A stretch of DNA of 64,000 bases from Variovorax sp. TBS-050B (GTDB taxonomy: Bacteria; Pseudomonadota; Gammaproteobacteria; Burkholderiales; Burkholderiaceae_C). Under the pieces are notes generated by a model that saw nothing but the letters and a program-made list of their open reading frames with translations, did not search any database and had not been told where the DNA came from. Position 1 is the first letter of the stretch; every line of letters starts with the position of its first letter. Below are positions 35,784 to 52,366 of this stretch, in pieces. Position numbers and translations under genes: made by a program. The stretch spans positions 2,331,001 through 2,395,000 of the forward strand of contig NZ_JARXYR010000002.1 of the NCBI RefSeq assembly GCF_029893635.1, written 5' to 3'.

Positions 35784-37570
35784 GGCCGCGGGCGTCGTCG
35801 CAGGCGGCGCGGCCGGCCGGCAGCGCCCGCAGCGCGCCGCGCCAGCGTCCGCGTGCCCGCCCGGGCGTGGACCGGGTGCTGCGCGAGGTCTTCGGCCACC
35901 GGCAGCTGCGTCCCGGCCAGCGCCACGTGATCGACCGCGTGGTGGCCGGCGAATCGACGCTCGCGGTGATGCCCACGGGCGCGGGCAAGTCGCTCTGCTA
36001 CCAGGTGCCGGCGGTGCTGGCCGGCGGCCGCACGGTGGTGGTCTCGCCGCTGATCGCGCTCATGAAGGACCAGTGCGAGAAGCTCGACGCGCTCGGCGTG
36101 CGCGCCGTGCAGTTGAACAGCCAGTGCAGCGCCGACGAGATCGCCGCCGCCGAAGCCGCCATCACGGACGGCAGCGCGCGGGTGATCTTCAGCACGCCCG
36201 AGCGGCTCGCCGATGCCGGCTTCGTCAAGCTGCTGCAGCAGCGGCCGGTGTCGCTGCTGGTGGTGGACGAGGCGCACTGCATCTCGCAGTGGGGGCACGA
36301 CTTCCGGCCCGCTTTCCTCGAAATCGGCGCCGCGCTGCGCGCGCTGGGCCAGCCGGTGGTGCTGGCGCTCACCGCCACCGCGAACGACGAGGTGGCCGCG
36401 GAGATCATGGAAAGGCTCGGCATCCCGCGCGCCGGCCTGGTCGACACCGGCGCCTACCGGCCGAACCTGCACTATGCCGTCGAGCCCTTCCTGCGCGAGG
36501 AAGACAAGCTGCAGCGCGCGCTCGCGCTGGTGGCGGGCCTGCAGGGCAGCGGCATCGTCTACACCGCGACGGTGAAGGCGGCCGAGGCGCTGTTCGCCGC
36601 GCTCGCGGACGCGGGCGAATCGGCGGGCCTCTACCACGGCCGCCAGCGCGCGGCCGACCGGCGCGACGCGCAGGACCGCTTCATGGCCGGCGAACTGCGC
36701 GTGATGGTCGCGACCAACGCCTTCGGCATGGGCATCGACAAGCCGGACATCCGCTTCGTGCTGCACTACCAGATGCCGTCGAGCCTCGACGCCTACTACC
36801 AGGAGTCGGGCCGCGCCGGCCGCGACGGCGAGCGCGCCGACTGCGTGCTGCTGTACCTGCGCCGCGACAAGGCGGTGCAGCAGTTCTTCCTGGCGGGCTG
36901 GCTGCCCGAACTGGCGGAACTGCGCGCACTGCAGCAGCTTCTGTCGGCCGCGCCCGAGACGCGCTGGGAGCCCGCCGAGCTGCCGCAGCGCGCACGCCTG
37001 CCGCGCGGCAAGCTGCGCGTGCTGCTGAACCTGCTCGCGCAGGCGCGGCTGCTCGCCCGCGACGACGAAGGCCGGCTGCGCTGGGGTCGCAAGCCGCCGC
37101 TCGACGATGCGGGGCTCGAGGCGCTGCTCGGCACGCACCGCGAGAAGCGCGAGCAGGAGCGCGCGGCGCTGGAACGCATGACCTTCTACGCGAGCACCGG
37201 CATGTGCCGCTGGCAGGTGCTGCTCGCCGGCCTCGGCAGCGAAGACGAGATCGCGCAGCGCTGCGGCGCTTGCGACAACTGCGTGCGCCTGGCGAAGCAC
37301 GAGCGCGAGCAGCAGCAGCAACAGCCGACCGCCGCGGAAGCCGGTGCCGCGCCGTCGCCCGAGGCCGCGAAGGCGGCCGCCCCGCGCACCGCCTTCGCGC
37401 GCGGCGCCGCGGTGCGCGTGCCGCGCTACGGCGTGGGCAGCGTGTCCAGCGCCGATGCGGTCTCGGTCACGATCGAATTCGCCGACGGCAGCGAGCGCTG
37501 CTTCCATCCCGAGTTCGTGCGTCCCGTGGTGGCGCGCCGGGCGCGGCGAGCGGCCGCGGCGCCCGGGTGA
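35780..37570 (+). CDS. recQ: RecQ-type ATP-dependent DNA helicase with nonstandard C-terminus
   Basis: Superfamily 2 helicase of 596 residues. Walker A is MPTGAGKSLCYQ, the DEAH box is VVDEAHCISQWGHDFRP (with the RecQ aromatic loop), and motif VI is QESGRAGRDG. A zinc-binding segment ends in CGACDNC. Instead of a winged helix plus HRDC, the C-terminus is a Gln/Ala-rich linker and a small beta module (VRVPRYGVGSV, then VTIEFADGSERCF) resembling the Tudor-like ends of UvrD/PcrA. ATG 35780 overlaps the upstream stop. The function would be fork restart or recombination repair. Confidence 0.88.
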   Translation: MRPRASSQAARPAGSARSAPRQRPRARPGVDRVLREVFGHRQLRPGQRHVIDRVVAGESTLAVMPTGAGKSLCYQVPAVLAGGRTVVVSPLIALMKDQCEKLDALGVRAVQLNSQCSADEIAAAEAAITDGSARVIFSTPERLADAGFVKLLQQRPVSLLVVDEAHCISQWGHDFRPAFLEIGAALRALGQPVVLALTATANDEVAAEIMERLGIPRAGLVDTGAYRPNLHYAVEPFLREEDKLQRALALVAGLQGSGIVYTATVKAAEALFAALADAGESAGLYHGRQRAADRRDAQDRFMAGELRVMVATNAFGMGIDKPDIRFVLHYQMPSSLDAYYQESGRAGRDGERADCVLLYLRRDKAVQQFFLAGWLPELAELRALQQLLSAAPETRWEPAELPQRARLPRGKLRVLLNLLAQARLLARDDEGRLRWGRKPPLDDAGLEALLGTHREKREQERAALERMTFYASTGMCRWQVLLAGLGSEDEIAQRCGACDNCVRLAKHEREQQQQQPTAAEAGAAPSPEAAKAAAPRTAFARGAAVRVPRYGVGSVSSADAVSVTIEFADGSERCFHPEFVRPVVARRARRAAAAPG

Positions 37571-37580
37571 GAATCGAGGC

Positions 37581-38900
37581 ATGCGCCTTCCACATCCCGC
37601 ACGCTTCCCCTTCGCAGTTTCCTGCAGGCTTTCGCTGATGGCGGCGGCCGCGGCCGTGTTCCTCGCCGGCTGCGCGTCCGATCCCGCGGCGACGCCTTCG
37701 CCCAAGCCGCCGCCCGCGGCCGTGCCGACGGTGCGGCCGGCCGCGCCCGCGCCCGCGGCGCAGGACGCCGCCGCCGTCGAACAGCGCTTCGCGGCCTGGG
37801 TGGCGGACTTCCGCGCCAGCGCGCGCGCCGCTGGCATCGCCGAGGCCACGCTGCAGAGCGCGTTCGCCGGCGTGCAGTACCTGCCGCGCGTGGTCGAGCT
37901 CGACCGCGCCCAGCCGGAGTTCACGCGCACCGTGTGGGAGTACCTCGACAACACCGTCACGCCGCAGCGCGTGGCCGCGGGCCAGGAGCGGCTGCAGCAG
38001 GTGCGCGCCGAAGCCGATGCCGCCGCCGCGCGCTACGGCGTGCCGCCCGCCGTGGTGGTCGCCATCTGGGGCATGGAAAGCAACTACGGCGGCAATTACG
38101 GCAGCACCCCGGTGATCGATGCGCTCGCGACGCTCGGCTTCGACGGCCGGCGCGAGGACTGGGCGAAGCGCGAACTGCTCGCGGCGCTCAGGATCCTCGA
38201 GAGCGGCGACATCGCACGCGACCGCATGATCGGCTCCTGGGCCGGCGCGATGGGGCAGACGCAGTTCCTGCCTTCGAACTTCCTCGCCTATGCGGTCGAT
38301 GCCGACGGCGACGGCCGGCGCGACATCTGGGGCAGCATGGCCGACGTCGTGGCCTCGACCGCCAACTTCCTCGCGCGCTCGGGCTGGCAGGCCGGCCAGC
38401 CCTGGGGCGTGGAGGTCCGGCTGCCCGCTGGCTTCGACCTCGGCCGCGCCGACATGGCGGTGCGCCAGTCCGCGGCGCAATGGGCGGCGGAGGGCGTGAC
38501 GGCCGTCGACGGCCAGCCGCTGCCGGCCCTGGCCGACGGCGCCATCCTGCTGCCCGCGGGCGCACGCGGCCCGGCCTTTCTGGTGGGGCCGAACTTCCGC
38601 ACCATCCTGCGCTACAACAACTCGACCAACTACGCGCTCGCGGTGGGCCTGCTGTCGCAGCGCCTCGGCGGCGGACCGGGGGTGCAGGCCGCATGGCCGC
38701 GCGAGCTCGCGGCGCTCTCGCGCAGCCAGACGGTCGAGTTGCAGACCGCGCTGAGCCAGCGCGGCTTCGCGGCCGGCGCGGCCGACGGCATCATGGGGCC
38801 GGCCACGCGCGATGCGCTGCGCCGCTACCAGCGCAGCGTCGGCCTGCCCGCCGACGGCTATCCGAGCCTGGACCTGCTGCAGCGGCTGCAGCAGCCCTGA
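37581..38900 (+). CDS. mltB: membrane-bound lytic murein transglycosylase B
   Basis: Peptidoglycan-cleaving lipoprotein of 439 residues. The signal sequence ends in the lipobox LAGC (Cys near 24), followed by a Pro/Ala-rich linker, the catalytic domain with glutamate in WGMESNYGG and the matching QTQFLPSNF and DGDGRRDIW segments, and a C-terminal peptidoglycan-binding module (LQTALSQRGF, DGIMGPATRDALRRYQ). Ten bases after recQ. It is the second lytic transglycosylase in the window and is intact, unlike the Slt gene at 16588. Confidence 0.93.
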   Translation: MRLPHPARFPFAVSCRLSLMAAAAAVFLAGCASDPAATPSPKPPPAAVPTVRPAAPAPAAQDAAAVEQRFAAWVADFRASARAAGIAEATLQSAFAGVQYLPRVVELDRAQPEFTRTVWEYLDNTVTPQRVAAGQERLQQVRAEADAAAARYGVPPAVVVAIWGMESNYGGNYGSTPVIDALATLGFDGRREDWAKRELLAALRILESGDIARDRMIGSWAGAMGQTQFLPSNFLAYAVDADGDGRRDIWGSMADVVASTANFLARSGWQAGQPWGVEVRLPAGFDLGRADMAVRQSAAQWAAEGVTAVDGQPLPALADGAILLPAGARGPAFLVGPNFRTILRYNNSTNYALAVGLLSQRLGGGPGVQAAWPRELAALSRSQTVELQTALSQRGFAAGAADGIMGPATRDALRRYQRSVGLPADGYPSLDLLQRLQQP

Positions 38901-38905
38901 AGCCG

Positions 38906-39017
38906 CGGACCCGGCACACGGGTCCGTTAAACTGGCCCCGGGTGCGAGGCCGGGGAGGGCCTCGCAGGTTCATGCGCTGGTCGGGCCGCCACGCAGTTCC
39001 GTCACGCCTGTTTCCCC
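38906..39017 (+). promoter_or_regulatory. structured leader RNA candidate before Na+/H+ antiporter
   Basis: The 117 bases between mltB and the antiporter can fold into three stems: 38907-38913 with 38919-38925 (GGACCCG/CGGGTCC), 38943-38951 with 38958-38966 (TGCGAGGCC/GGCCTCGCA, perfect, loop GGGGAG), and a weaker one around TGCG-N-CGCA at 38973-38994. The GGGG loop can pair with the CCCC just before the ATG (39014-39017), and no Shine-Dalgarno sequence is visible. Bacterial cation exporters are often controlled by Li+ or Na+ riboswitches; whether this is one needs a covariance-model search. Confidence 0.45.
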
Positions 39018-40277
39018 ATGCAAGAGCCCACCATCCAGTACGTCGCCGCGGCCCTGTTCGCCATCGCGCTCATCCACACCTTCGCCGCCAAGCAGTTCGA
39101 GCGGCTGTCGCACCGCTTTCCCCGCCACGCCGGCCTGTTCCATCTGCTCGGCGAGGTCGAGGTCGTCTTCGGCTTCTGGGCCATCGTGCTCGTGCTCGCG
39201 ATGGCGCTGCTCGTCGGCGGCCAGGAGGCGCTCGGCTATGCCGAATCGCGCAACTACACCGAGCCGCTGTTCGTCTTCGTCGTCATGGTGGTGGCGGCCT
39301 CGCGGCCGGTGCTCGCCACCGTGATGTCGGGCGTGAACACCATCGCGCGGCTGGTGCCGCTGCCCACGCCGATGGCGACCGCATGGCTCGGCCTGGCGGC
39401 GGTGCCGCTGCTCGGCTCGCTCGTCACCGAGCCCGCGGCCATGACCATCGCCGCGCTGATGCTGGCGCCGCAGATCTTCCGGCCGCAGGTGCCCGAGGCG
39501 GTGAAGTACTTCGCGCTCGGCGTGCTGTTCGTCAATGTGTCGATCGGCGGCACGCTCACCTCGTATGCCGCGCCGCCGGTGCTGATGGTGGCCACGACCT
39601 GGCAGTGGGACAGCGCCTTCATGCTCGCCACCTTCGGCTGGAAGGCCGCGGTGGCCGTGGTCGTCAACGCCACCGTCGCCACCTTCGTGCTGCGCCGGCA
39701 CCTGCCCGCCGCGTCGGCGGCGGCAGGCCACGCGACCGGGGCGCCCGTGCCGGCCACGGTGGCGGCCACGCACCTGGTGCTGCTCGCGGGCATCGTGCTC
39801 TTCGCGCACCATCCGGTGGCCTTTCTCGGCCTGTTCCTGATGTTCCTCGGCTTCACCCAGGCCTACGAGCGCCACCAGAGCCCGCTGATCATCAAGGAGG
39901 CGCTGCTCGTGGGCTTCTTCCTGGCCGGCCTCGTGGTGCTGGGCGGCATGCAGCGCTGGTGGCTGGAGCCGGTCGTCTCGGGCCTGGAGCCGCTCGCCCT
40001 GTTCTTCGGCGCGCTCGGGCTGACGGCGATCACCGACAACGCCGCGCTCACCTACCTCGGCTCGCTGATCGCGAACATCTCCGACCAATCCAAGTACATG
40101 CTCGTCGCGGGCGCGGTGGCCGGCGGCGGCCTGACCGTGATCGCCAACGCGCCGAACCCCGCGGGCGTGGCGCTGCTCAAGCGCGGCTTCTCCGACGAGA
40201 CCATCGGCGCGGGCGGCCTGCTGCTCGGCGCGCTCGGCCCGACGATCGTGGCCGCCGCGGCCTTCATGCTGCTGTAG
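39018..40277 (+). CDS. putative Na+/H+ antiporter
   Basis: Polytopic inner membrane protein of 419 residues with about eleven hydrophobic helices. It fits a family annotated as putative Na+/H+ antiporters; candidate ion-binding residues are the Glu in GSLVTEPAAMTI and the Asp/Asn in AITDNAALTYLG, both inside helices, and a NAPNPAGVALL segment near the end. Ion and direction of transport are inferred. The first ATG (39018) follows a CCCC rather than a ribosome-binding site and lies behind a structured leader. Its end overlaps the convergent EamA gene by 14 bases. Confidence 0.82.
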   Translation: MQEPTIQYVAAALFAIALIHTFAAKQFERLSHRFPRHAGLFHLLGEVEVVFGFWAIVLVLAMALLVGGQEALGYAESRNYTEPLFVFVVMVVAASRPVLATVMSGVNTIARLVPLPTPMATAWLGLAAVPLLGSLVTEPAAMTIAALMLAPQIFRPQVPEAVKYFALGVLFVNVSIGGTLTSYAAPPVLMVATTWQWDSAFMLATFGWKAAVAVVVNATVATFVLRRHLPAASAAAGHATGAPVPATVAATHLVLLAGIVLFAHHPVAFLGLFLMFLGFTQAYERHQSPLIIKEALLVGFFLAGLVVLGGMQRWWLEPVVSGLEPLALFFGALGLTAITDNAALTYLGSLIANISDQSKYMLVAGAVAGGGLTVIANAPNPAGVALLKRGFSDETIGAGGLLLGALGPTIVAAAAFMLL

Positions 40278-41235
40278 CGCCGCAAGCCTTGGCGCCGTGG
40301 CGGCCCGGTGCGGCGGCGACTGTCGCGGTGCCGCGGTTCACCGCGGTGTGAAGCAGCAGCGCCCCCACCACCATCGCCATGCCGGCCGCCTCGTTGGCCG
40401 AGGGCAGCTTGCCGAGCGCCATGCCCATCAGCAGCGCAGAGACCGGCACGAAGTTCAGGAAGGCCGTGCCGGTCACCGCGCCGAGGGTGCGCACGCCGTA
40501 GTTGAAGGCCAGCACGCACAGCGCCGAAGGCACCAGACCGACGAAGAGGAGGGCATGCCAGGTGAGGCGCAGCCCTTCGGCGCTCGGCGCATGGCTGACG
40601 CCGAAGGCGTTGGCGAGCAGTGCGGCGGCCAGCAGCAGCGGCCACGCGGCGAGCACCGTGAGCGCCGAGTATTCGAGCACGTCGAGTCCCGGCAGGCGCG
40701 CCGCGCCGCGCGTGTACCAGATCCATCCGAGGGTGCCGACGAAGGCGATGGCATCGCCCGCGAGCGCGCCGGTGCCGGCCGCGGCGGGCGCGCCGAAAAG
40801 CAGGCCCGACACCATCGCCACCCCCGCGAGCGCAATCGCCGTCGCCAGCAGCCCGAGCCGCGCGGGCCGCACGCCGTCGACCGCCCAGCGCACGAGCTGC
40901 GTGGTCATCGGCGTGGTGGCGACGATCACCGCGCCGTGCGAAGGCACCGAGTGCGCGAGCCCGACGAACAGCAGCACGCTGAAGACGCCGAAGCCCGCAC
41001 CGCCGCGCAGCGCGAGCGGCCCCGCATGCAGCCGCAACTTGCGCCACGGCCCCGCGCCGCGCGGCAGCAGCAGCGCGGCGAACAGCAGCGCCGACACGCT
41101 GTAGCGGATGAAGGTGAGCCAGACCGGCCCGACCTGCGGCAGCACAGCCTTGCCGACCAGGAACATGGAACCCCAGCCGGCGGTGGCGAAGAGCAGCGCG
41201 GCGATGCCGAGCGGACGTGGATGCGTGTGGGACAT
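40264..41235 (-). CDS. EamA/DMT-family transporter
   Basis: Ten-helix drug/metabolite transporter of 323 residues made of two EamA repeats. The first begins GIAALLFATAGWGSMFLVGKA, the second GDAIAFVGTLGWIWYT; PLLAAALL-type helices alternate regularly. Members usually export amino acids or small metabolites. ATG 41235 starts just before the first helix; the open frame extends into the divergent LysR region. Divergent from the LysR gene at 41378 across 142 bases, so that regulator probably controls it. Confidence 0.88.
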   Translation of the reverse strand: MSHTHPRPLGIAALLFATAGWGSMFLVGKAVLPQVGPVWLTFIRYSVSALLFAALLLPRGAGPWRKLRLHAGPLALRGGAGFGVFSVLLFVGLAHSVPSHGAVIVATTPMTTQLVRWAVDGVRPARLGLLATAIALAGVAMVSGLLFGAPAAAGTGALAGDAIAFVGTLGWIWYTRGAARLPGLDVLEYSALTVLAAWPLLLAAALLANAFGVSHAPSAEGLRLTWHALLFVGLVPSALCVLAFNYGVRTLGAVTGTAFLNFVPVSALLMGMALGKLPSANEAAGMAMVVGALLLHTAVNRGTATVAAAPGRHGAKACGATAA

Positions 41236-41377
41236 GGTGCTTGAAGCCTCTCGCGTGGAATCAGTCGATGGCTCGAAGCATCGACCTTCGTGCGGCGCGA
41301 GGCCATTCGCTTCTTTGGACAGGGGGCTCCGAAAAAGCGAACGGACGGAATCCACCCGCGCGCCCACAATCCGCGGC

Positions 41378-42247
41378 ATGGAGCTCTACCAACTCAAGAC
41401 CTTCGTCGCGATCGCGAAGGAGGGCAGCCTCACGCGCGCGGCCGAGCGCGTGTTCACCAGCGCGCCGGCCGTCAGCGCGCAGCTCAAGGCGCTCGAGGAC
41501 GAACTCGGCGTCAAGCTCTTCGAACGCACGCCCCGCGGCATGGTGCTCACCCCGGCCGGCCGCAGCCTGCGCGAAGAGGCCGAGCGCACGCTCGACTCGG
41601 CCATGCGCATGCGCTCCGCCGCCGAGCAGATCCGCGGCGCGGCGCAGGGCGTGGTGCGCTTCGGCACCGTGGTCGACCCGGTGGCGCTGCGGCTCGGCGA
41701 CGTGCTGGTCAAGCTGGCCGAGCGGCATCCGCAGGTCACGCTGCAGCTGCGCCAGGGCCTGTCGTACGAGACGCTCGCGGCCGTGCAGCACGGCGAGCTC
41801 AACTGCGCCTATGCCCTCAGCGACGACGAGGAGGTCGACGGCCTCGAACTGCGCCGCCTCGTGCCGGTGGAACTCGTGGTCGCGCTGCCCGCACCGGTCT
41901 CGCGGCCCGGCCTCACGCTCGAAGAACTCACGCAGATGCCCTGGGTGGGAACGCCGCCCTCGTGCATCCTGCGCACCCACCTCGAAAAGCTGTTCGCGGG
42001 CGCAGGCCGCCCCTACCGGCAGGGCCGCACCGCCGACAACGAGAGCGCCATCCGTAGCATGGTCGCCAGCGGCATGGGCGCCGGCCTGATGCGGCTCGAC
42101 CAGGCCGAACAGGGACGGCGCAACGGCGAGCTCGCCATCTGGGAAGGCTGGCGTTCGCGCACCTGGCTGTGCTGGCTCGCGGGGGAGGGGCGGCACGCGG
42201 CGGCGGTGGATGCGGTGCGCGGCGCGGTGCTGGAAGCCTGGGCCTGA
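41378..42247 (+). CDS. LysR-type transcription regulator
   Basis: Regulator of 289 residues with the winged helix at 2-60 (LYQLKTFVAIAKEGSLTRAAE, then SAPAVSAQLKALEDELGV) and an effector domain opening with VVRFGTVVDP. The recognition region SAPAVSAQ differs slightly from the usual TQPAVS. It is divergent from the EamA exporter, the classic LysR-target layout. The 1627-residue ligase follows 60 bases downstream on the same strand, so readthrough control of that gene is also possible. Confidence 0.9.
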   Translation: MELYQLKTFVAIAKEGSLTRAAERVFTSAPAVSAQLKALEDELGVKLFERTPRGMVLTPAGRSLREEAERTLDSAMRMRSAAEQIRGAAQGVVRFGTVVDPVALRLGDVLVKLAERHPQVTLQLRQGLSYETLAAVQHGELNCAYALSDDEEVDGLELRRLVPVELVVALPAPVSRPGLTLEELTQMPWVGTPPSCILRTHLEKLFAGAGRPYRQGRTADNESAIRSMVASGMGAGLMRLDQAEQGRRNGELAIWEGWRSRTWLCWLAGEGRHAAAVDAVRGAVLEAWA

Positions 42248-42307: not shown

Positions 42308-45300
42308 ATGAGCCAAGAACTTACATTTCCCGCGGAACTGCTCGCGCGCGCACGGCGGGTCCTGACCGCTACGGACGGTGCCCTCCCGACTGCCGCCGCC
42401 ACCCACGAGGCGGGCTGCGTGGTCCTCATCGCGCTGGGCGACGGCACCAGCCGCGCACGTGTCGTCTGCGGCCGCGGGTCCGGCGCCGAGGAAGCCTGGC
42501 GCGCCGCCTGCGACGCGGCGATGGCACTGGCGAAGCGCATCGGCATGCAGCCCGTGCGCCTGCGCGCGGAACTGGTCGACCGGGTGGAGCCGATGACCTG
42601 GGGCGCGCTCAAGGCGCGGCTCGCGCGCACCAAGCGCAACTACTTCCACCTCGGCGTGTCCTTCGATGTGCGCTTCGAGACCGCGCTGCTCGCGCAGGAG
42701 ATCAACGGCAGCGCGATCTTCTACAACGGCACCGTCGACCATGCCGAGCCGAACGCGGGCAACCTGGGCCTGCATGCGAAGCGGCGTTTCGGCCGCGAGA
42801 TCGGGTTTCCGGCCGATGACGCGGCGCCCGTGTGGTGCTTCACCACCCGCGCCGCCTATGCGGATGCCGAGGGCGCCTGGCCGATCACGCCCGAGGGGCA
42901 GGCCGCGGGCTACCGCGTGCTTGCGGACTGGGGCGCACCGCAGGTGCGTGGCCTCGTCGACAGCGCGAGCGACTACCTCGCGGCGCAGGTCAAGCCCACG
43001 GGCGAGTTCCATTACGGCTGGTTTCCCTGCTTCGACCGCCCGATTCCGACCTACAACACGCTGCGCCATGTGAGTTCGACCTATGCGCTGCTCGAAGCCT
43101 GGGAACTGACGCGCAGCGACGGCCAGAAGGCGGCGATCGACCGCTCGCTCGCCTTCGTGGCCGAGCGCCTGATCCGCGAGGCGACGCTCGCCGACGGCAC
43201 GCGCGCCGCCTACCTGCTCGATGTCGGCAACGAGATCAAGCTCGGCGGCAATGCGGTGTGTCTGCTGGCCTTCGTCAAATACACCGAGCTCACGGACGAC
43301 CGCCGGTACCTGCCGCTGCTGGAGCGGCTCGCGCTCGGCATCCGCGCGATGCAGGACCCGGCGAGCGGCCGCTTCGTGCACGTGCTGAATCACCCGGCGC
43401 TCGACGTGAAGAGCGCCTTCCGCGTCATCTACTACGACGGCGAAGCGGCCTTCGGCCTGATGCGCCTGTACGGCCTCACGCGCGATCCCCGCTGGCTCGC
43501 GGTGGTCGAGAAGGCCTTCGAGCACTTCATCGCCGCGAAGCACTGGCAGGCGCACGACCACTGGCTGAGCTACTGCGTGAACGAGCTCACGCGCTGGCGG
43601 CCCGAGACGCGCTACTACGAGTTTGGACTGCAGAACGTGGCGGGCTACCTCGACTTCGTGCTCGAGCGCATCACCACCTTCCCGACGCTGCTCGAGTTGA
43701 TGATGGCCGCGCGCGAGATGCTGGTGCGGCTCGAAGCCGACCCGGCGCTGCGCGTGCTGCTCGACGGCTTCGACCGCGCCAAGTTCGACCGCGCACTCGA
43801 ACACCGCGCGCGCTACCTCGCCAACGGGTACTTCTGGCCGGAGCTCGCGATGTTCTTCCGCCACCCCGACCGCATCACGGGGTCGTTCTTCATCAAGCAT
43901 CACAGCTTCCGCGTGCGCATCGACGACGTGGAGCACTACCTCTCGGGGTATGTCGCGTACCTCAAGTTCCTGCAGGGCGGGAAGGACGCGCCCGGCGACC
44001 GCATCGCAGCGTCGGCGACGCCGAAGGCCGCTGCCGCGCCGCTGCTGGCGCGCGACGCGGGGCCGGTGGTCGCCTGGGGCGGCGACGTGAACCTCGGCCG
44101 CCGGCAGCACTACCGCACCGAGGAACTGGGCCTGCCTGCCGTGCTCGGCGGCGTGCCGGTGCTCGCCGAGGCGGATCTGCGCATCGTCAATCTCGAATGC
44201 GTGGTCGCCACCGTCGGCGCACAGGGCGTCGAGAAGGGCGAGGCCACGCCCTACTACTACCGTGCGCGGCCCGAGATGCTGCGCGTCCTGGCCGAGGCCC
44301 GCATTGAGGTGGTCGCCACCGCCAACAACCACAGCGGCGACTACGGTGTCGAGGCGTTGATGGAGCAGGCACGGCTGCTCGATGCCGCCGGCATCGGCCA
44401 CTCCGGCACCGGCGCCACGCTCGACGACGCGCTCAGGCCGGTCCTGCGCCGCGTGGGTGCGCTCAACGTAGCGCTGTTCGCGATCGACGCGACCCAGCCG
44501 CACTTCGCCGCCACGCAGACCGCCGGCGGCAGCGCGTACCTGTCGCTCTCGGCGCCGTCGGCATGGTTCGATGTCCTCGCGCCGCGCATCGCCGCCGTGC
44601 GCGACCGGGCGCACGTGGTGCTGGTGGCCGTGCACTGGGGCCGGAACCAGGAACCCGCGCCCGGCGGCGAGGAGATCGCCGTCGGCCACGCCATCATCGA
44701 AGCCGGCGCCGACGCGGTGCTGGGCGCGTCCGCGCACATGCTGCAGGGCGTCGAAATCCACCAGGGGCGGCCGATCGTCCACGACGCCGGCGACTTCCTG
44801 TTCGATGCGGTCCAGCGCGACGACGACGAAGGCGGCGTGTTCTCGCTGCAGCTCGGCGAGGAAGGCGTCCGGCGCGTGATGTTCACGCCCATCGGCACCG
44901 GCTTCGGACAGACGGTGCAGCTCGAAGGCGAGCGCGGCATCGCCGCGGCGCGCCGCTTCATGCAGAAATCCGCGGACCTCGGTTCGAGCTTCACCATGGC
45001 GCCAGGCGGCCAGTGCGTGCTCGATCTGCAGCCGCCGCCGCGCGCGCCGCGGACGCTGCCGCCCGTGCCCGAGGCGGCGCTCCGCCCCGATGCGATCCAG
45101 CCCGTCGTGATGCCGCGCGACGAATGGCAGGTGGATGCCGTGCCGCCCGACGCGCGGCTCCCGGCGCCAGTCGCATTGGGTCCGCTTCGCCTGCTCGGCC
45201 TGCGCGCCACGCCGGATGCCGTCGTGGGCCGGCGGCTGCTGTTCGTCGAGACCTTCTGGCAGATCGATGCGCCGGTCGACACCGACTGGCGGCTCGACAT

Positions 45301-47191
45301 CCGCGCCGTGCCGGTGCCGCCCGCCACCATGCCCTCATGGGGCGCCGCCATGGACCACGACCCCTGCGACTGGATGTGGCCCACCCGCCGGTGGCAGCCG
45401 GGCGTGATCTACCGCGACCGCTACGGCCTGCGCCCGCCCGCCGGCAAGACGCTGCACGACGCGCAGCTGCAGCTCGTGGTCGGCCTGGTCGGGGCGCCGG
45501 GCCGCACCCGGCGCGTGCCGGTGGGTGCGCCGATCTCGTTCGCCGCGCGCAAGGGCAGGCCCACGGCGCAGCCGCTGGAGAGCTTTCCGCCGCCGCCGCG
45601 CTACCGGGCGATACCGCCCCAAGCCCTGCCGCCCGACCTGCCCGGCGTTGCGGGGCAGGTGTGGAATGCCGCGCAGGTCGCTGCCGCCACCGGCGGAACG
45701 TGGCTGGTCGAGCCGCCGCCCGGCTGGTTCGTGCGCTCGGTGCCGCGCAGCGAGACCTTTCTCGACCTGCTGCCCGGGCCTTCGCTGTTCGTCGTCTCCG
45801 GCGAGCCGGTGCGTGCGCTGCACGAACGCTATGCCGTCGCGCGGGAACGCCTGAAGTGGGACTGGTCACAACATCTCGCCCGGCTCCAGCCGCGGCTGGC
45901 CGGTGCCGTGCTGTCGGAGCCCGTCGACGGGCTTCCGCCCGATTTCCCGGTGCTGCAGGTCGCCGACCCGATCCACGCGCTGATCGAACTCGGCGCCACC
46001 GCACGCCAGCGCATGCGCGGCCGCGTGGTGGCGATCACCGGCAGCGCGGGCAAGACCTCCGTGTGCCGGATGCTGGCGCACGCCTTCGCGGCCTCGCACA
46101 AGGTCTTCTCCACGCTGGAGAACTACAACTCGCGCGTGGGCATGCTCGCGATGCTGGCGAACGTCTCGGCCGACACCGACCTCGTCGTGCTCGAGACCGC
46201 CGTGAGCGGTATCAACGCACCGGATTTCCAGAACATCAAACTGGTGCAGCCCGATCTGGCCATCGTGACCAACATCGCGCCTTCCCACTTGGCCGAGGGG
46301 CAGACGGTGCTCGACATCGCGCGGCGCAAGGCCAACATCTTCGAAGGCATGTGTCCGGGCGGCATCGCGGTGCTCTGCACCGACACCGAGCATTTCGACT
46401 ATCTGCGCAGGCGCGCACGCGCGCGACGGCTCGAAGTGCTGACCTACGGCACGGCCGATTCGGCGGACATCCGGCTCGAGGCGCACGATGCGGCGACGGG
46501 GCAGGTCACGGCGAGCCACGGCGGCCGGCGCTTCTCCTACCTGCTGGGTGCGAAGGGGCGGCACATGGCGGTCAACAGCCTCGTGTGCTTCGCAGTCGCG
46601 CATGCGCTCGGGCTCGACCCGGCGAAGGTGCCCGCGCAGCTCGCGTCCTTCGCGGCCGTGGCCGGGCGCGGACGGCTGCTGCACCTCGCGCTCGCCGGAC
46701 GCGGCTTTCGGCTCATCGACGAAACGTACAACGCCAATCCGCTGTCGATGGCCATGGCGCTCGCCATGGTGGCCGAGGAGCCTTGCGCCGAAGGCGGCCG
46801 CAAGCTGCTCGTGCTCGGCGACATGCTCGAACTCGGCCGCGATGCGGCGCGCTACCACGAAGCGCTCGTCGCATCGATCGCCCAATGCCACCCCGCGCAG
46901 GTCTTCCTGCGTGGGCCGCAGATGCAGGCCCTGCGCGAACGGCTCGCGGCGGCCCTGCCGGGCACGCCGGTGCACGCACCCGCCACCCTCGCGGAACTCG
47001 AAGGCATGCTGCTCGAGGCCATCGGCAACGGCGACCTGCTGCTGCTCAAGGGGTCGAACGGCATGCAGCTCTGGCGGATCGTGAAGGCGATGACGAAGCT
47101 GCACGAGCAACAACAACAGCAACAGCAGCCGCCGGCGATCGTGATCCGGCGCGTCGCGGCGCACCCGGCTGCCGCCGGCCCCTCCGCATGA
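42308..47191 (+). CDS. multidomain toroid / CapA / beta-sandwich / MurF-type ligase
   Basis: A 1627-residue protein without signal peptide or membrane helix. Residues 1-200 are unrecognised. About 215-560 look like an alpha/alpha-toroid of sugar-active enzymes (GEFHYGWFPCFDRP near 231, GGNAVCLLAFVKY). About 585-860 is a CapA (PGA_cap) module: GGDVNLGRR, NLECVV, ATANNHSGDYG near 671, AVHWG near 774, SAHMLQGVE. About 910-1080 is a beta-sandwich-like part (HDPCDWMWPTRRWQPG). About 1105-1600 is a whole MurF-like ligase: N-terminal domain, P-loop ITGSAGKTS near 1243, ETYNANPLSM near 1470, GDMLELG and LKGSNGMQLW. It ends in a poly-Gln run. CapB of poly-gamma-glutamate synthesis is also Mur-like, so amide polymer or conjugate synthesis is the best inference; the product is unknown. 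Confidence 0.8.
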   Translation: MSQELTFPAELLARARRVLTATDGALPTAAATHEAGCVVLIALGDGTSRARVVCGRGSGAEEAWRAACDAAMALAKRIGMQPVRLRAELVDRVEPMTWGALKARLARTKRNYFHLGVSFDVRFETALLAQEINGSAIFYNGTVDHAEPNAGNLGLHAKRRFGREIGFPADDAAPVWCFTTRAAYADAEGAWPITPEGQAAGYRVLADWGAPQVRGLVDSASDYLAAQVKPTGEFHYGWFPCFDRPIPTYNTLRHVSSTYALLEAWELTRSDGQKAAIDRSLAFVAERLIREATLADGTRAAYLLDVGNEIKLGGNAVCLLAFVKYTELTDDRRYLPLLERLALGIRAMQDPASGRFVHVLNHPALDVKSAFRVIYYDGEAAFGLMRLYGLTRDPRWLAVVEKAFEHFIAAKHWQAHDHWLSYCVNELTRWRPETRYYEFGLQNVAGYLDFVLERITTFPTLLELMMAAREMLVRLEADPALRVLLDGFDRAKFDRALEHRARYLANGYFWPELAMFFRHPDRITGSFFIKHHSFRVRIDDVEHYLSGYVAYLKFLQGGKDAPGDRIAASATPKAAAAPLLARDAGPVVAWGGDVNLGRRQHYRTEELGLPAVLGGVPVLAEADLRIVNLECVVATVGAQGVEKGEATPYYYRARPEMLRVLAEARIEVVATANNHSGDYGVEALMEQARLLDAAGIGHSGTGATLDDALRPVLRRVGALNVALFAIDATQPHFAATQTAGGSAYLSLSAPSAWFDVLAPRIAAVRDRAHVVLVAVHWGRNQEPAPGGEEIAVGHAIIEAGADAVLGASAHMLQGVEIHQGRPIVHDAGDFLFDAVQRDDDEGGVFSLQLGEEGVRRVMFTPIGTGFGQTVQLEGERGIAAARRFMQKSADLGSSFTMAPGGQCVLDLQPPPRAPRTLPPVPEAALRPDAIQPVVMPRDEWQVDAVPPDARLPAPVALGPLRLLGLRATPDAVVGRRLLFVETFWQIDAPVDTDWRLDIRAVPVPPATMPSWGAAMDHDPCDWMWPTRRWQPGVIYRDRYGLRPPAGKTLHDAQLQLVVGLVGAPGRTRRVPVGAPISFAARKGRPTAQPLESFPPPPRYRAIPPQALPPDLPGVAGQVWNAAQVAAATGGTWLVEPPPGWFVRSVPRSETFLDLLPGPSLFVVSGEPVRALHERYAVARERLKWDWSQHLARLQPRLAGAVLSEPVDGLPPDFPVLQVADPIHALIELGATARQRMRGRVVAITGSAGKTSVCRMLAHAFAASHKVFSTLENYNSRVGMLAMLANVSADTDLVVLETAVSGINAPDFQNIKLVQPDLAIVTNIAPSHLAEGQTVLDIARRKANIFEGMCPGGIAVLCTDTEHFDYLRRRARARRLEVLTYGTADSADIRLEAHDAATGQVTASHGGRRFSYLLGAKGRHMAVNSLVCFAVAHALGLDPAKVPAQLASFAAVAGRGRLLHLALAGRGFRLIDETYNANPLSMAMALAMVAEEPCAEGGRKLLVLGDMLELGRDAARYHEALVASIAQCHPAQVFLRGPQMQALRERLAAALPGTPVHAPATLAELEGMLLEAIGNGDLLLLKGSNGMQLWRIVKAMTKLHEQQQQQQQPPAIVIRRVAAHPAAAGPSA

Positions 47192-48134
47192 TCGAACGCC
47201 ACGCCCACCGCACCGGGGGCCGGCTCGCATGGGTGCTGCTGCTTGCGCTGTCGCAAGCCGCCTGCGCGCAGCGTGCCGGGCTGGACGCTCCGACGCCTGC
47301 GGCCCGCAGCGCCGACGCGCCCCTCGCATGGAACCAGCCCGCCACGCGCGCCGCCTGCCCCGACCGCCCCGGCTACCTCTGGGTGCAGCCGCCCGAAGGT
47401 CCGGCCTGCGTCCGCTACTTCGCGAGCAGCGACCTCGACGGCGCGCGGCTCGCGATCGTGCAGTTCTCGGGCGACCGCGACAGCCTGATGGAGCGGCCGC
47501 CCGCGCAGATCCCGGGCAACACCGAGGCGCTGCGCACGCGCGACGCCCAGCGCAGCCGCGATCGCGCGGGCGTGCCGTGGGTGTTCGTGGCGCGGCCCGG
47601 CACGTATGGGTCGTCGGGCGACCACGGCAGGCGGCGCGAGATTGCCGAGTTCCACGCGCTCGACGCCGCGCTCGACGCGCTGATGCAGCGCCACCGGCTG
47701 CAGCGCATCGTGATCCTCGGCCACAGCGGCGGGGCCACCGCGGGCGCGGCGCTGCTCACGCTGGGCCGCCAGCGCATCGCCTGCGCGGTGCTGACCTCGG
47801 GCGCCTACGGGCTGCTGGAGCGCGCGCGCCGGCTCGGCAAGTCGCGCGGCGGCCGCAGCGACACCACCGGAAGCACGCAGTTCTACGACCCGCTCGCGCA
47901 CGTCGACGGCATCGTGCCCGACCCCGCGCGACGCATCGTGCTGATCGGCAGCCGCGAGGACCGCAACACGCCCTTCGACCTGCAGCAGCGCTTCGCCGAT
48001 GCGGTCGCGCGCGCGCGGGCCACCGCGTCGAGATCCGCACCCACGCGGCCGACCCGCCCGAATACCACGACCTGCAGGACCGCATCGGCCTGCGCACCGC
48101 CGCGCAGTGCGCGCAAGAGGCGATGCACCCATGA
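47188..48134 (+). pseudogene. exported alpha/beta hydrolase, apparent frameshift near 3' end
   Basis: Serine hydrolase with an N-terminal export signal (LAWVLLLALSQAACAQ). The nucleophile elbow is ILGHSGGATAG; a SREDRNTPF segment offers the acid. In the starting frame the reading passes QQRFADAVARA and then becomes Arg/Pro/Thr nonsense; the frame two bases on gives GHRVEIRTHAADPPEYHDLQ, with the expected catalytic His, and a stop at 48134. The switch falls in an alternating CG run (48006-48015). Corrected length about 314 residues. Its ATG overlaps the ligase stop and its stop overlaps the galM ATG, so it is part of a coupled cassette. Real inactivation or sequence error cannot be told apart here. 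Confidence 0.75.
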
Positions 48135-49237
48135 ACACCATGACGACCACCACGACAGCCACGACCACGACCGCCCGCGGCATCGCCACGCGCGAATTCG
48201 GCCACATGCCCGACGGCCGCCCCGTGACCGAATACACCCTCGACAACGGCCGCGGCCTGAGCCTCAGCACCATCAACCTCGGCGGCATCGTGACCGCGCT
48301 GCGGGTGCCGGGCCGCGACGGCCGGGCCGGGAACATCGTGCTGGGCCTGCCGACGCTGGCCGAGTACCTGCAGCCGCATCCGCATTTCGGCACCATCGTC
48401 GGACGCTATGCCAACCGCATCGCGCACGGCCGCTTCACGCTCGACGGCACGCCGCACCAGCTGACGATCAACAACGGCGTGCATTCGCTGCATGGGGGCA
48501 CGCACGGCTTCGGCACGCGCTTCTGGGAGATCGCGCCGGTGGACGACGCGCCGGATGCGGTGGCCGTCGAGCTGCGCTACACCAGCGCGGACGGCGAAGA
48601 GGGCTTCCCGGGCGAGCTGCGGCTCGCGGTGCGCTACGCGCTGAGCACGCGCGCGAACACCTGGCGCATCGACTACCGGGCCGAGACCGACCGGGCCACG
48701 GTGCTGAACCTGAGCCACCACGACTATTTCAATCTCGCGGGCGAGGGTGCGGTGCTCGACCACCGGCTGACCATCCCGGCCAGCCGCTTCTGCCCGGTGG
48801 ATGCGGGCCTGATACCGCTCGGCACGGCAGCGGTGGCGGGAACGCCCTTCGACTTCCGCGCGCCCATGCCGATCGGCGAACGCATGGCCGATCGGCACGA
48901 GCAGCTGCTTGCCGCCGGCGGCTACGACCACAACTGGGTGCTCGATCGGCCGGCGCCGGACGGCCTGGCGCTCGCTGCGCGGCTCGAACACGAGGCCACC
49001 GGCCGCGTGATGGAAGTGCACACCACCGAGCCGGCGGTGCAGTTCTATTCGGGCAACTTCCTGGACGGCAGCCTGCGCGGCGCGGACGGCGAGCCGCTGC
49101 GCCGCGGCGCGGGCCTGTGCCTGGAGACGCAGCACCATCCCGACGCGCCGAACCGGCCGGAGTTTCCCTCCACCGTGCTGCGGCCGGGCGAGCGCTTCCA
49201 CAGCGCGACCGAGCACCGCTTCGACGTGCTGGGCTGA
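48131..49237 (+). CDS. galM: aldose 1-epimerase (galactose mutarotase family)
   Basis: Interconverts alpha and beta anomers of aldohexoses. The 368-residue protein has NGVHSLHGG, the catalytic histidine in LSHHDYFNLAG and the catalytic glutamate in CLETQHHPDAPNRPEFP, with GRYANRIAHGRF near the N-terminus. No signal peptide; the N-terminus is a Thr-rich tract (TTTTTATTTT). ATG 48131 overlaps the hydrolase stop (ATGA). It may serve the ligase cassette or, as a sugar mutarotase, the oxidative sugar pathway that begins about 1.3 kb downstream. Confidence 0.92.
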   Translation: MNTMTTTTTATTTTARGIATREFGHMPDGRPVTEYTLDNGRGLSLSTINLGGIVTALRVPGRDGRAGNIVLGLPTLAEYLQPHPHFGTIVGRYANRIAHGRFTLDGTPHQLTINNGVHSLHGGTHGFGTRFWEIAPVDDAPDAVAVELRYTSADGEEGFPGELRLAVRYALSTRANTWRIDYRAETDRATVLNLSHHDYFNLAGEGAVLDHRLTIPASRFCPVDAGLIPLGTAAVAGTPFDFRAPMPIGERMADRHEQLLAAGGYDHNWVLDRPAPDGLALAARLEHEATGRVMEVHTTEPAVQFYSGNFLDGSLRGADGEPLRRGAGLCLETQHHPDAPNRPEFPSTVLRPGERFHSATEHRFDVLG

Positions 49238-49243
49238 CGCGGC

Positions 49244-49519
49244 TCAGCGCGGCGCCGGTTGCACCATCGCCGCCACGAGCCGACGCACCAGCGGCAGCAC
49301 CACGAGCAGCGAGGGAAAGGCCACCAGCCACGAGACGCCCCAGGCCGCCATCCACTGCGGCAGCAGACCGGGATGGAAGCCCACGCTCTTGAGCGTGGAG
49401 ATGCCCGCGACGATGCAGGACATGAAGACCGAGAGCAGCAGCGGCATCAGGATGCCCGCATAGCGCGCCGGCAGCCGGCGCGTGCGCATGGCGGTGGAGG
49501 CGGGTGTGGTTGTTTCCAT
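49244..49519 (-). CDS. DUF2798 small membrane protein
   Basis: Protein of 91 residues with two predicted helices (ILMPLLLSVFMSCIVAGIS and WLVAFPSLLVVLPLV) and the family's RLPARYAGILMPLLLS start, after a Thr-rich leader. Function unknown. ATG 49519 follows an AAGGAAT ribosome-binding site; the longer open frame is unlikely. Divergent from the LysR gene at 49643, convergent with galM. Confidence 0.8.
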   Translation of the reverse strand: METTTPASTAMRTRRLPARYAGILMPLLLSVFMSCIVAGISTLKSVGFHPGLLPQWMAAWGVSWLVAFPSLLVVLPLVRRLVAAMVQPAPR

Positions 49520-49642
49520 GGATGATTCCTTTCTGGCTTGCTTGAATGCGGCCTTGCCGCGACAGCCCAAAGATAGAAAAAGCCGCCGCTTCGGAGAATC
49601 CGTGCGCGGCGCCAAGAACCTTCATCCAGATCGGGAGAATCC

Positions 49643-50530
49643 ATGGACCAGCTGCAGGACATCCGCGCCTTCGTCGCCATCGTCGACCTGGGCAGCCAGA
49701 GCGCGGCGGCGCGCCAACTCGGGCGCTCGGTGCAGTCCATCAGCCGCTCGCTGGGCGTGCTCGAGCGCAGCCTCGGGGTCCAGCTGATCCGGCGCACCAC
49801 GCGGCGTTCGTCGACCACCGAGGTGGGGCGCAGCTACTACCGCCGCGTGCAGGCCGCGCTGGCCGAACTCGACGCGGCGGGCGCCGAGGCCAGCAGCCAG
49901 CTCGATGCGCCGCGCGGCCTGCTGCGCGTGGCGGCGCCGGTGCAGTTCGCGGCGTCGTACGTGGTGCCGCTGGTGGCGGCGTTCATGCAGCGCTATCCGG
50001 GCATGGAGGTGGACCTCACCGCGTCCGACCGCTTCGTGGACCTGATCGAGGGCGACATCGACCTTGCGATCCGCGCCGGCGAGCTGCCGGATTCGGAGCT
50101 CGCGGCCCGCCGGCTCGGCGCGCTGCGGCTGGTGGTGTTCGGCGCACCCGCGTACTTCGCGCGGCACGGCCGGCCCGAGCGCCCGGAAGACCTGGCATCG
50201 CACCAGTGCCTGGTGCGCACCACGCACGGCAACGATGCGCACTGGCCCTTCAGCGTCGACGGCCGGCTCGCGCGCGTGAAGGTGTCGGGGCGGTTCCGCG
50301 CCGACAGCACGAGCGCGCTCTATGCCGCGGTCACCGCCGGCATGGGCCTGTTCCGCACGCCGCTGTGGCAGATCCGGCCGCTGCTCGACAGCGGGCAGGC
50401 CGAGCTGGTGCTCACCGGGTTCGAAGCGCCGCCGCTCCCGCTGCATGCGGTGTGGCCGGCGGCGCGCGGCAGTTTCGCGCGCGCGAAGCTGTTCGCCGAT
50501 TTCGCGGCGGAGCACCTGCCGCCGCTCTGA
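49643..50530 (+). CDS. LysR-type transcription regulator
   Basis: Regulator of 295 residues, winged helix at 3-62 (IRAFVAIVDLGSQSAAARQLGRS, SVQSISRSLGVLERSLGV split) and effector domain from LLRVAAPVQFAASYVVPL. The GDIDLAIRAGELPDS segment resembles the group that regulates short-chain dehydrogenases and drug-related genes. Divergent from DUF2798 over about 120 bases; convergent with the lactonase by 18 bases. Target unknown, DUF2798 being the obvious candidate. Confidence 0.88.
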   Translation: MDQLQDIRAFVAIVDLGSQSAAARQLGRSVQSISRSLGVLERSLGVQLIRRTTRRSSTTEVGRSYYRRVQAALAELDAAGAEASSQLDAPRGLLRVAAPVQFAASYVVPLVAAFMQRYPGMEVDLTASDRFVDLIEGDIDLAIRAGELPDSELAARRLGALRLVVFGAPAYFARHGRPERPEDLASHQCLVRTTHGNDAHWPFSVDGRLARVKVSGRFRADSTSALYAAVTAGMGLFRTPLWQIRPLLDSGQAELVLTGFEAPPLPLHAVWPAARGSFARAKLFADFAAEHLPPL

Positions 50531-50548
50531 GCGGCGCGCCGCCGCGCG

Positions 50549-51454
50549 TCAGCCCGCGAACAGCGCGGCCGGCAGACCCGGGCTGCCGATGCGCACGCTG
50601 AACAGGCCGCCCGCGAGCGGCTCGGCCGCGAGCGCTGGGTCCGACAGGCCGGTGCGCGCGGTGCTGATGTAGAGCGTGCAGAGGTCTTCGCCGCCGAAGG
50701 CGCAGTCGGTCACCTGGCTGGCGGGCAGCGTGATGCGCGCCAGCTCGGCGCCGCTCTCGGGGTCGTGGCAGCTCACGCAGTGGCCGCCCCAGCGCGCGAT
50801 CCAGAGCCGGCCGGCCGCGTCGGTGGTCATGCCGTCGGGCAGGCCCTCGCCCTCGCCGAAGCGCAGCCACACGCGCTTGTTGCGCACCGTGCCGGCCGCG
50901 GCGTCGAAGTCATAGGCGTAGATGCAGCCCTCGACCGTGGCGTTGAAGTACATCGTGCGCTCGTCGAGCGACCAAGTCGGCCCGTTCGTCACCGCGAAGC
51001 CGTCGTCGTGGCGCGTGCAGCTGCCGTCGGCATCGAAGCGGTAGAGCGCGCCCGTGGGGGCCTGGCAGTCGAAGTCCATGCTGCCGGCCCAGAAGCGGCC
51101 CTGCCGGTCGCACTTGCCGTCGTTGAAGCGGTTGCCGGCGCGCTCGGGCTCGGGCCGGTGCAGGTAGCGCGGCGCCGCATCCAGCGCCGGATCGAACAGC
51201 GCGAAGCCGCGGCGCATGGTGACGATCAGCCCGGGCGCCTCGGCGCGTTCGGCCAGCGCGGTGATCTCCTCGTCGAACTGCCAGCTGCGGCGCTCGCCGC
51301 CGCGCGGGTCGTGGCGATGGAGCCGGCCTTCGAGGATGTCGATCCAGTAGAGCACCTGTTCGCGCTGCGACCAGACCGTGCCTTCGCCGAGGGCGGCATC
51401 GGCGGGCCAGAGGCATTCGGGCGTGCCGAGGATGGTGGGGGCACTGAGGGCCAT
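50549..51454 (-). CDS. SMP-30/gluconolactonase-family sugar lactonase
   Basis: Six-bladed beta-propeller lactonase of 301 residues. The divalent metal ligands are in LGEGTVW (Glu), RFNDGKCDRQGRFW (Asn/Asp), VTNGPTW (Asn) and EGLPDGMT (Asp), all intact. It opens aldonolactones made by sugar dehydrogenases. Here it is divergent from a sugar dehydrogenase (SDR) and lies in a locus with a semialdehyde dehydrogenase and a sugar-acid dehydratase, so an arabino-, galactono- or xylonolactonase role fits. The shared 100-base intergenic region carries TATCAA-N6-TTGATA. Confidence 0.9.
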   Translation of the reverse strand: MALSAPTILGTPECLWPADAALGEGTVWSQREQVLYWIDILEGRLHRHDPRGGERRSWQFDEEITALAERAEAPGLIVTMRRGFALFDPALDAAPRYLHRPEPERAGNRFNDGKCDRQGRFWAGSMDFDCQAPTGALYRFDADGSCTRHDDGFAVTNGPTWSLDERTMYFNATVEGCIYAYDFDAAAGTVRNKRVWLRFGEGEGLPDGMTTDAAGRLWIARWGGHCVSCHDPESGAELARITLPASQVTDCAFGGEDLCTLYISTARTGLSDPALAAEPLAGGLFSVRIGSPGLPAALFAG

Positions 51455-51507
51455 GGGCGTTGTCTCCTTCGTTGTTGTTGGCGAATCGTCCTTGACGCGG
51501 CGGATCG

Positions 51508-51558
51508 TATCAAGGCATATTGATAATAGAAATCAGCATTCTCGGCATCTATTGATAT
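51508..51558. promoter_or_regulatory. TTGATA-type operator between lactonase and sugar dehydrogenase
   Basis: TATCAA-N6-TTGATA (51508-51525) is a perfect inverted repeat, and a further TTGATAT lies at 51552-51558. The same words occur in the divergent gbpR/aldehyde dehydrogenase promoter at 53523-53564. The likely binder is the GbpR-like LysR protein. Confidence 0.5.
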
Positions 51559-52366
51559 GGATTTTGCAATGACAGAAAACGCCTCTTCGCAGCAGCGGCA
51601 GCAGCAGCACGCGATCCATCCCAGCCTCGCGGGGCGCACGGTCTTCGTGACCGGCGGCGGCAGCGGCATCGGCGCGGCCATTGTGGCCGCGTTCGCGGCG
51701 CAGGGCGCGCGCGTCGCCTTCGTCGACATCGCCGAGGCCGAGAGCGCCGCGCTCGCGCAGCGCATCGCTGCGGCGGGCCATGCCGCGCCGTGGTGGCGCA
51801 CCTGCGACGTGCGCGACATCGCGGCGCTGCAGAAGGCCATTGCCGACGCGGCCGCCGAGCTCGGCGACTTCGCGGTGCTGGTCAACAACGTCGCGAGCGA
51901 CGACCGCCACACGCTCGAATCGGTCACGCCGGACTACTACGACAACCGCATGGCCATCAACGAGCGCCCCGCGCTGTTCGCGATCCAGTCGGTGGTGCCG
52001 GGCATGAAGCGGCTGGGCTTCGGCTCCGTCGTCAACCTCGGCTCCACGGGCTGGCAGACCAAGGGCTCGGGCTATCCCTGCTACGCGATCGCGAAGTCCT
52101 CGGTCAACGGCCTCACGCGCGGCCTGGCGGTGGAGCTGGGCAAGCACCGCATCCGCATCAACACCGTCTCGCCCGGCTGGGTGATGACCGAGCGGCAGGT
52201 CAACCTGTGGCTCGATGCCGAGGGCGAACAGGCCCTGCAGCGCAACCAGTGCCTGCCCGACAAGCTGATGCCCGAAGACATCGCGCACATGGTGCTGTTC
52301 CTCGCCTCCGACGACGCCAGGATGTGCACGGCGCAGGAGTTCACGGTGGACGCGGGCTGGACTTGA
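51557..52366 (+). CDS. SDR-family sugar dehydrogenase
   Basis: Short-chain dehydrogenase of 269 residues. NAD(P) motif TGGGSGIG near 34, NNVAS strand, and a catalytic Ser...Tyr-x3-Lys in LGSTGWQTKGSGYPCYAIAK. The C-terminus ends SDDARMCTAQEFTVDAGWT as in classical SDRs. Related enzymes oxidise L-arabinose, D-xylose or D-galactose at C1 to the lactone. The lactonase is divergent, and the rest of an oxidative sugar pathway follows. An internal ATG at 51569 is an equally possible start, which would leave the TTGATAT word outside the gene. Confidence 0.87.
   Translation: MDFAMTENASSQQRQQQHAIHPSLAGRTVFVTGGGSGIGAAIVAAFAAQGARVAFVDIAEAESAALAQRIAAAGHAAPWWRTCDVRDIAALQKAIADAAAELGDFAVLVNNVASDDRHTLESVTPDYYDNRMAINERPALFAIQSVVPGMKRLGFGSVVNLGSTGWQTKGSGYPCYAIAKSSVNGLTRGLAVELGKHRIRINTVSPGWVMTERQVNLWLDAEGEQALQRNQCLPDKLMPEDIAHMVLFLASDDARMCTAQEFTVDAGWT

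Follow-up and report, generated by a model that had tools for sequence, protein, structure and literature searches.

A single open reading frame in the genome of Variovorax sp. TBS-050B (positions 42308..47191 of a window of 64,000 nucleotides, itself positions 2,331,001 to 2,395,000 of contig NZ_JARXYR010000002.1; all window features given here lie on the forward strand) raises the question of what one protein of 1627 residues does with an N-terminal domain, an (alpha/alpha)6 toroid, a CapA domain, a beta module and a complete MurF-like ligase. The initial annotation, which had recognized this combination, proposed an ATP-dependent amide-bond synthase that joins amino acids to a carbohydrate or makes a non-ribosomal polymer. 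Profile and structure evidence bore out the combination itself, the profiles supporting CapA (PF09587) as well as the middle and C-terminal domains of a Mur ligase. The survey of homologue neighbourhoods that it had called for placed relatives of the toroid beside adhesins with X-Asp repeats in Gram-negative and Gram-positive bacteria. We consider it very likely that the fusion belongs to this X-Asp adhesin system, in which giant adhesins that bear extended tracts of X-Asp dipeptides have a toroid encoded next to them, associated in Gram-negatives with type I secretion.

The toroid (residues 206-560, 42923..43987) is the constant part of this system. The sample included the best 80 of 384 relatives from a search of genome contigs and 18 hand-picked records among the 54 plasmid records with a match, plus one E. 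coli record. Genome comparison established the linkage to adhesins: 47 of the 67 toroid loci outside Variovorax hold an X-Asp tract of at least eight units and 54 of the 67 hold either a tract or a match to HlyD, TolC, LapG or LapD, whereas 20 control regions, drawn from five of these genomes, contained no tract and no such secretion or Lap match. An adhesin composition test also flagged antisense frames of repeats, so that later counts were based on explicit X-Asp tracts; the tract count omits the adhesin of the window genome, whose gene extends over two stretches and was read separately. The ATPase of the type I secretion system (T1SS) was dropped as a marker because generic ABC-transporter matches occur in 9 of the 20 controls. 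Most adhesins at toroid loci carry long, often perfect X-Asp tracts, Acinetobacter L007 being one without. The loci of Agrobacterium contain BapA-like proteins, TolC, a T1SS ATPase and HlyD, those of Nitratireductor and Klebsiella are alike, and those of Staphylococcus and Listeria contain LPXTG and Sdr-like proteins. Components of the LapA/LapG/LapD system are matched at many Enterobacteriaceae toroid loci, and in Phytobacter (L059) the toroid and adhesin genes are separated by those of LapG and LapD. Each of the three loci fetched from another genus (L229, L231 and L232) has an Ala-Asp adhesin gene with a three-part fusion of the window type immediately downstream of it. Two of these loci show T1SS matches nearby and the other a TolC match at the edge; the Ala-Asp tract of L231 is divided over reading frames. 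Toroid-bearing genomes numbered 14/398 in a phylum sample, 3/369 in a class sample, 4/295 in the order of G166 and 25/295 in its family, 6/48 in the order of G105 and 5/61 in the family of G861, and a Citrobacter query matched 3 of 5426 E. coli genomes, in each case on a plasmid and over 59% of the query length.

Glycosylation of staphylococcal Ser-Asp repeats is already known, as is the control of adhesins by LapD and LapG. In S. aureus COL, according to passages of one study, gtfC lies downstream of pls, the gene of an adhesin with SD (Ser-Asp) repeats, and encodes a protein of 538 residues that is annotated as hypothetical, is not recognized by CAZy as a transferase and shares 69% identity with a protein of S. 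epidermidis; GtfC and GtfD together give full glycosylation of Pls, while without GtfC the COL GtfD alone glycosylates weakly and the 1061 genes show none (PMC5230774). The staphylococcal toroids that we identified have 538 residues, with 68.8% identity between those of S. aureus (P0242) and S. epidermidis (P0268), and their loci are ordered pls-toroid (L201) or adhesin-toroid-convergent glycosyltransferase (L200, L203), Sdr-like genes preceding some toroids. Matching length, identity and gene order argue strongly that GtfC is very probably the toroid protein, and the window toroid is homologous to P0242 over its length (34.2% over 532 columns). SdgA and SdgB are described as GT-B enzymes (PMC8561734) and S. 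epidermidis sesJ as always having two transferase genes downstream (PMC7029136), both in passages of the respective papers. In the glycosylation of staphylococcal SD repeats (SdgA/SdgB; GtfC/GtfD) a toroid gene likewise stands directly after an X-Asp adhesin. The window fusion differs in having CapA and a Mur-type ligase in place of the glycosyltransferase, and its kin are found mostly with Ala-Asp tracts, which carry no hydroxyl, instead of Ser-Asp. The window genome encodes an X-Asp adhesin, although not directly beside the fusion gene, a position that the window-type architecture does take in L229, L231 and L232.

Genome comparison further established that the partner adjoining the toroid predicts the tract: glycosyltransferases go with Ser-Asp or Thr-Asp, and Mur or ATP-grasp ligases with Ala-Asp. 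In the first set of loci, GT4 partners accompany 12 Ser-Asp and 2 Ala-Asp tracts, and Mur partners 3 Ser-Asp and 20 Ala-Asp tracts (p 1.8e-5). Since related strains are not independent, the test at genus level is the fairer one, and there GT4 goes with Ser-Asp in 7/9 and Mur with Ala-Asp in 13/15 (p 0.003). The later loci were taken once the idea of a partner-repeat rule existed (L196-L233; 11 of the 38 are repeats of earlier contigs and were left out, and the 27 new ones comprise 21 with tract and partner, four with a tract and no recognized partner and two with no tract). Here all nine glycosyltransferases adjoin Ser-Asp (seven GT4) or Thr-Asp tracts (two GT2, with a toroid, in L222 and L223), and all 12 ligases (11 Mur, one ATP-grasp) adjoin Ala-Asp tracts (p 3.4e-6). 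Five of these 21 loci come from one genus, and six have toroids more than 90% identical to a first-set toroid (one of them 100%), the result without these six being 6/6 versus 9/9. None of 105 loci matched both partner types; ten first-set loci with a tract and no recognized partner, plus the Gly-Asp locus L124, stand outside the partner test. Hydroxyl residues pair with sugar transferases, and tracts that offer only the Asp carboxylate pair mostly with carboxylate-amine ligases, which is the main reason why we propose amidation of Asp below.

We also noticed loci of other composition: in L124 a toroid with no recognized partner adjoins a long Gly-Asp tract; Acinetobacter L007 and L198 have a toroid, a separate CapA gene and no X-Asp tract, an annotated T1SS target preceding the toroid in L007; and L115, L117 and L119 combine a toroid with a YheCD ATP-grasp protein, the stretch covered there showing neither an X-Asp tract nor a secretion match.

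Elsewhere in the window genome (G000:C2:665014-676781) we identified an Ala-Asp adhesin (tract at G000:C2:673725-676781) together with genes for a 1022-residue toroid-Mur protein that has lost its P-loop, a T1SS ATPase, HlyD and an outer-membrane efflux protein of the TolC type. Across 101 Variovorax genomes, in which toroid classes were set by bit score with toroid-only copies counted in, fusion-class and operon-class toroids co-occur in 49, one class only is found in 1 and 4, and neither in 47. The T1SS-linked operon copies combine a ligase devoid of the P-loop with an X-Asp tract in 21/21 (18 Ala-Asp-rich, three Ser-Asp-rich), whereas in the fusion class the P-loop is kept in 12/12 of the copies that have a Mur match, and this difference suggests that the fusion may supply an active ligase in trans to the operon adhesin. 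One operon-class copy, on an 11-kb contig (L167), keeps the P-loop and has no T1SS match or tract. The ligases of Variovorax fusions come in two subtypes, YNANP/GSAGKTS (window, L034) and WNAE/GTVGKSS (most of those listed), seen at loci such as L034 and L016; since the remainder of the protein is conserved, the ligase module seems to have been swapped.

Several observations weigh against assigning the fusion to adhesin modification. Within its 64 kb the window contains neither an X-Asp tract of at least six units nor a match to HlyD, TolC, LapG or LapD, no tract lies near any of the 20 Variovorax fusion-class loci sampled (19 genomes), and 13 of the 67 loci outside Variovorax have neither a tract nor a secretion or Lap match. 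Seven of the 20 fusion-class loci consist of the toroid alone, L186 has no Mur match, and the operon Mur in the toroid-only genomes also lacks the P-loop, so that the ligase is dispensable there; the toroid-only loci thereby weaken the idea of an action in trans. The first set also includes five exceptions to the partner-repeat rule (L050, L063, L005, L084 and L111), and toroids with no recognized partner likewise occur beside Ala-Asp, Ser-Asp or Gly-Asp tracts.

The MurF-like ligase of the fusion (residues about 1110-1600, 45635..47107) retains an intact P-loop (TGSAGKTS, 46037..46060, with Lys1249), Lys1341 (46328..46330), at the position of the conserved, carbamylated Lys of Mur ligases, the YNANP motif and the N/A/SM motif. 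These are motifs of an active Mur ligase, for which the formation of amide bonds with ATP is predicted. With a score of 262.9 against the MurF model (curated cut-off 288.6) the ligase falls below both cut-offs, and a misannotated housekeeping MurF is ruled out, the true MurF of the genome being encoded elsewhere. Amide-bond chemistry driven by ATP, as first proposed for this protein, stands as the best guess on account of the P-loop, the conserved Lys and the YNANP motif; a capsule-type or free non-ribosomal polymer as its product is not supported.

Fold matches hardly reach the N-terminal alpha/beta domain (residues 1-205, 42308..42922), as the structure searches used larger pieces of the fusion and their matches cover parts other than this domain and the beta module (residues 941-1080, 45128..45547; predicted strands at model positions 380-509). 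Together, N-terminal domain and toroid have 68 invariant columns in an alignment of 18 diverse relatives. By structure search the toroid has the (alpha/alpha)6 fold of the AGE sugar 2-epimerases and GH76, a comparison made at the level of the fold; no AGE or GH76 catalytic residues were recovered by sequence with the toroid profile, and the single match of this profile to PDB sequences is at chance level. The nearest solved fold of the CapA domain (residues 573-910, 44024..45037) is that of the lasso peptide epimerase MslH. Its calcium ligand His261 is replaced by Gly778 in the fusion, so that epimerase activity is not implied by the CapA sequence, and the counterparts of MslH Asp11 and Glu44 are placed by motif only. 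Cyanophycin synthetase appeared among the fold matches of a larger piece of the fusion.

The mechanism that we propose makes the fusion a cytoplasmic enzyme that modifies X-Asp dipeptide-repeat adhesins, and as a whole it is a serious but still uncertain candidate. The N-terminal domain and toroid, which are homologous to the 538-residue staphylococcal proteins, would bind the acidic tract, (Ala/Ser-Asp)n, or process it ahead of adhesin export. The ligase would spend ATP on activating a carboxylate, with the tract's Asp side chains as the most likely target, and couple an amine to it through an amide bond, the amine being an amino acid or a short peptide. The CapA domain might edit or epimerize the product and an exported hydrolase might act on it outside the cell, both being guesses, and in Variovorax the fusion would act in trans on the Ala-Asp adhesin of the distant T1SS operon. 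A covalent modification of the tract, of whatever kind, is probable; amidation of Asp by the Mur domain, the likeliest chemistry, is plausible, and we advance it tentatively. A precedent for such chemistry is cyanophycin synthetase, in which a Mur-like domain joins Arg to Asp side chains. CphA1 differs from the fusion in domain order and in the toroid, and the Asp-rich backbone would here be a ribosomal adhesin tract. In its most elaborate form the proposal is speculative and would amount to a new class of protein modification: with the toroid as scaffold, ligases of the Mur or ATP-grasp type would amidate the Asp side chains of ribosomal poly(Ala-Asp) in giant biofilm adhesins, giving a cyanophycin-like surface of altered charge; CapA, S11 and extra ligases would build longer, perhaps D-amino-acid branches; and glycosyltransferases would serve Ser-Asp and Thr-Asp.

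The best-surviving alternative, which we regard as unlikely but worth keeping in mind, is that ligase and CapA yield a small amide compound, activated or free (a peptidyl sugar precursor, for instance), whose attachment to adhesin or matrix would fall to the toroid or some other enzyme, so that the ligase never contacts the adhesin. Mur ligases classically act on soluble UDP-linked substrates, the toroid shares the fold of sugar epimerases and GH76, and some relatives carry second Mur, ATP-grasp or S11 modules, all of which would suit such a pathway. The correspondence between partner type and repeat residue, however, points to direct contact with the tract. The idea that a carbohydrate is involved, raised by the initial annotation, retains some ground, since a glycosyltransferase replaces the ligase in related systems and the toroid has a sugar-epimerase-like fold.

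It is less probable that the protein helps very acidic, unfolded tracts as a chaperone or in their secretion, its ligase being a binding scaffold that leaves no covalent mark. The loss of the P-loop in all 21 Variovorax operon copies and the persistence of toroid-only copies would agree with this. The P-loop is nevertheless kept in the window and in all 12 of the fusions in which a Mur domain is present, exchange among GT4, GT2, Mur and ATP-grasp partners fits chemistry better, and the covalent mark on Pls requires GtfC in the passages of the study cited above (PMC5230774).

A synthase of a poly-gamma-glutamate (PGA)-like or other free non-ribosomal polymer, as had been suggested from CapA and a Mur-type ligase within one protein, is very unlikely. 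PgsB is indeed a Mur homologue, and with PgsBCA/CapBCA the fusion shares the CapA domain. The genome, on the other hand, has no PgsB/CapB match (TIGR04012 across the whole genome; the match of the fusion itself, at 0.0049, is far under the cut-off) and a single CapA match, the fusion; its relatives occupy adhesin and secretion loci, and ribosomal (Ala-Asp)n repeats are the likelier acceptor. We reject a PGA synthase on account of the missing PgsB and of the gene context. The weakest reading, that unrelated genes merely travel together in adhesin islands, as the plasmid location of part of the loci might suggest, has hardly any standing given the toroid/X-Asp pairing in Staphylococcus, Listeria, Enterobacteriaceae, Agrobacterium and Variovorax, the fusion of the toroid to several partners and a repeat-specific partner choice that held on later loci.

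The fusion is a member of a conserved family. A search with it gave 823 relatives (E <= 1e-3), the best 120 of which include proteins from Variovorax, Microbulbifer, Alcaligenes, Sphingobium, Oceanimonas and Halopseudomonas. Extra C-terminal modules are a second Mur ligase (P0052), ATP-grasp (P0075, P0104), acylphosphatase (P0104) and S11 peptidase (P0041, P0056), and the added ATP-grasp, acylphosphatase or second Mur of P0104, P0075 and P0052 resemble an assembly line. Elsewhere the toroid is standalone or fused to GT4, a Mur ligase, a YheCD ATP-grasp, GT2 or several ATP-grasp domains; in Phytobacter it is separate, next to a single Mur-S11-CapA gene followed by a hydrolase gene.

In the window, the fusion stop codon is overlapped by an alpha/beta-hydrolase-like gene (47188..48134) with, by eye, a signal-peptide-like start, and a relative of this hydrolase adjoins the fusion or toroid at many loci. 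The gene has a frame shift near 48000, and relatives match one frame up to about that position; it seems to end in another frame, through either a broken gene or a sequencing error. The other neighbours (37344-41379 and 48000-52366; lytic transglycosylase, permease, EamA, LysR, aldose epimerase, SMP-30 and SDR, named by eye) are seemingly unrelated, and several of them recur around the toroid-only version in Variovorax, for which the neighbourhoods of three out of the seven loci were covered.

Among the matches listed for the open-licence PMC literature, no paper joins Mur or ATP-grasp ligases with X-Asp repeats in the passages covered, and those of an amidoligase paper describe peptide-ligase operons with no such fusion (PMC2922099). 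The system unites genes whose current names are hypothetical protein, CapA family protein or poly(glycerol-phosphate) alpha-glucosyltransferase. It is found with repeat adhesins in organisms that range from staphylococci to bacteria of soil and sea, and offers a role for GtfC, which is required in adhesin glycosylation although it is no transferase by CAZy. For the Ala-Asp tracts it predicts a so far undescribed amide decoration, which would stand in the place of the staphylococcal sugars.
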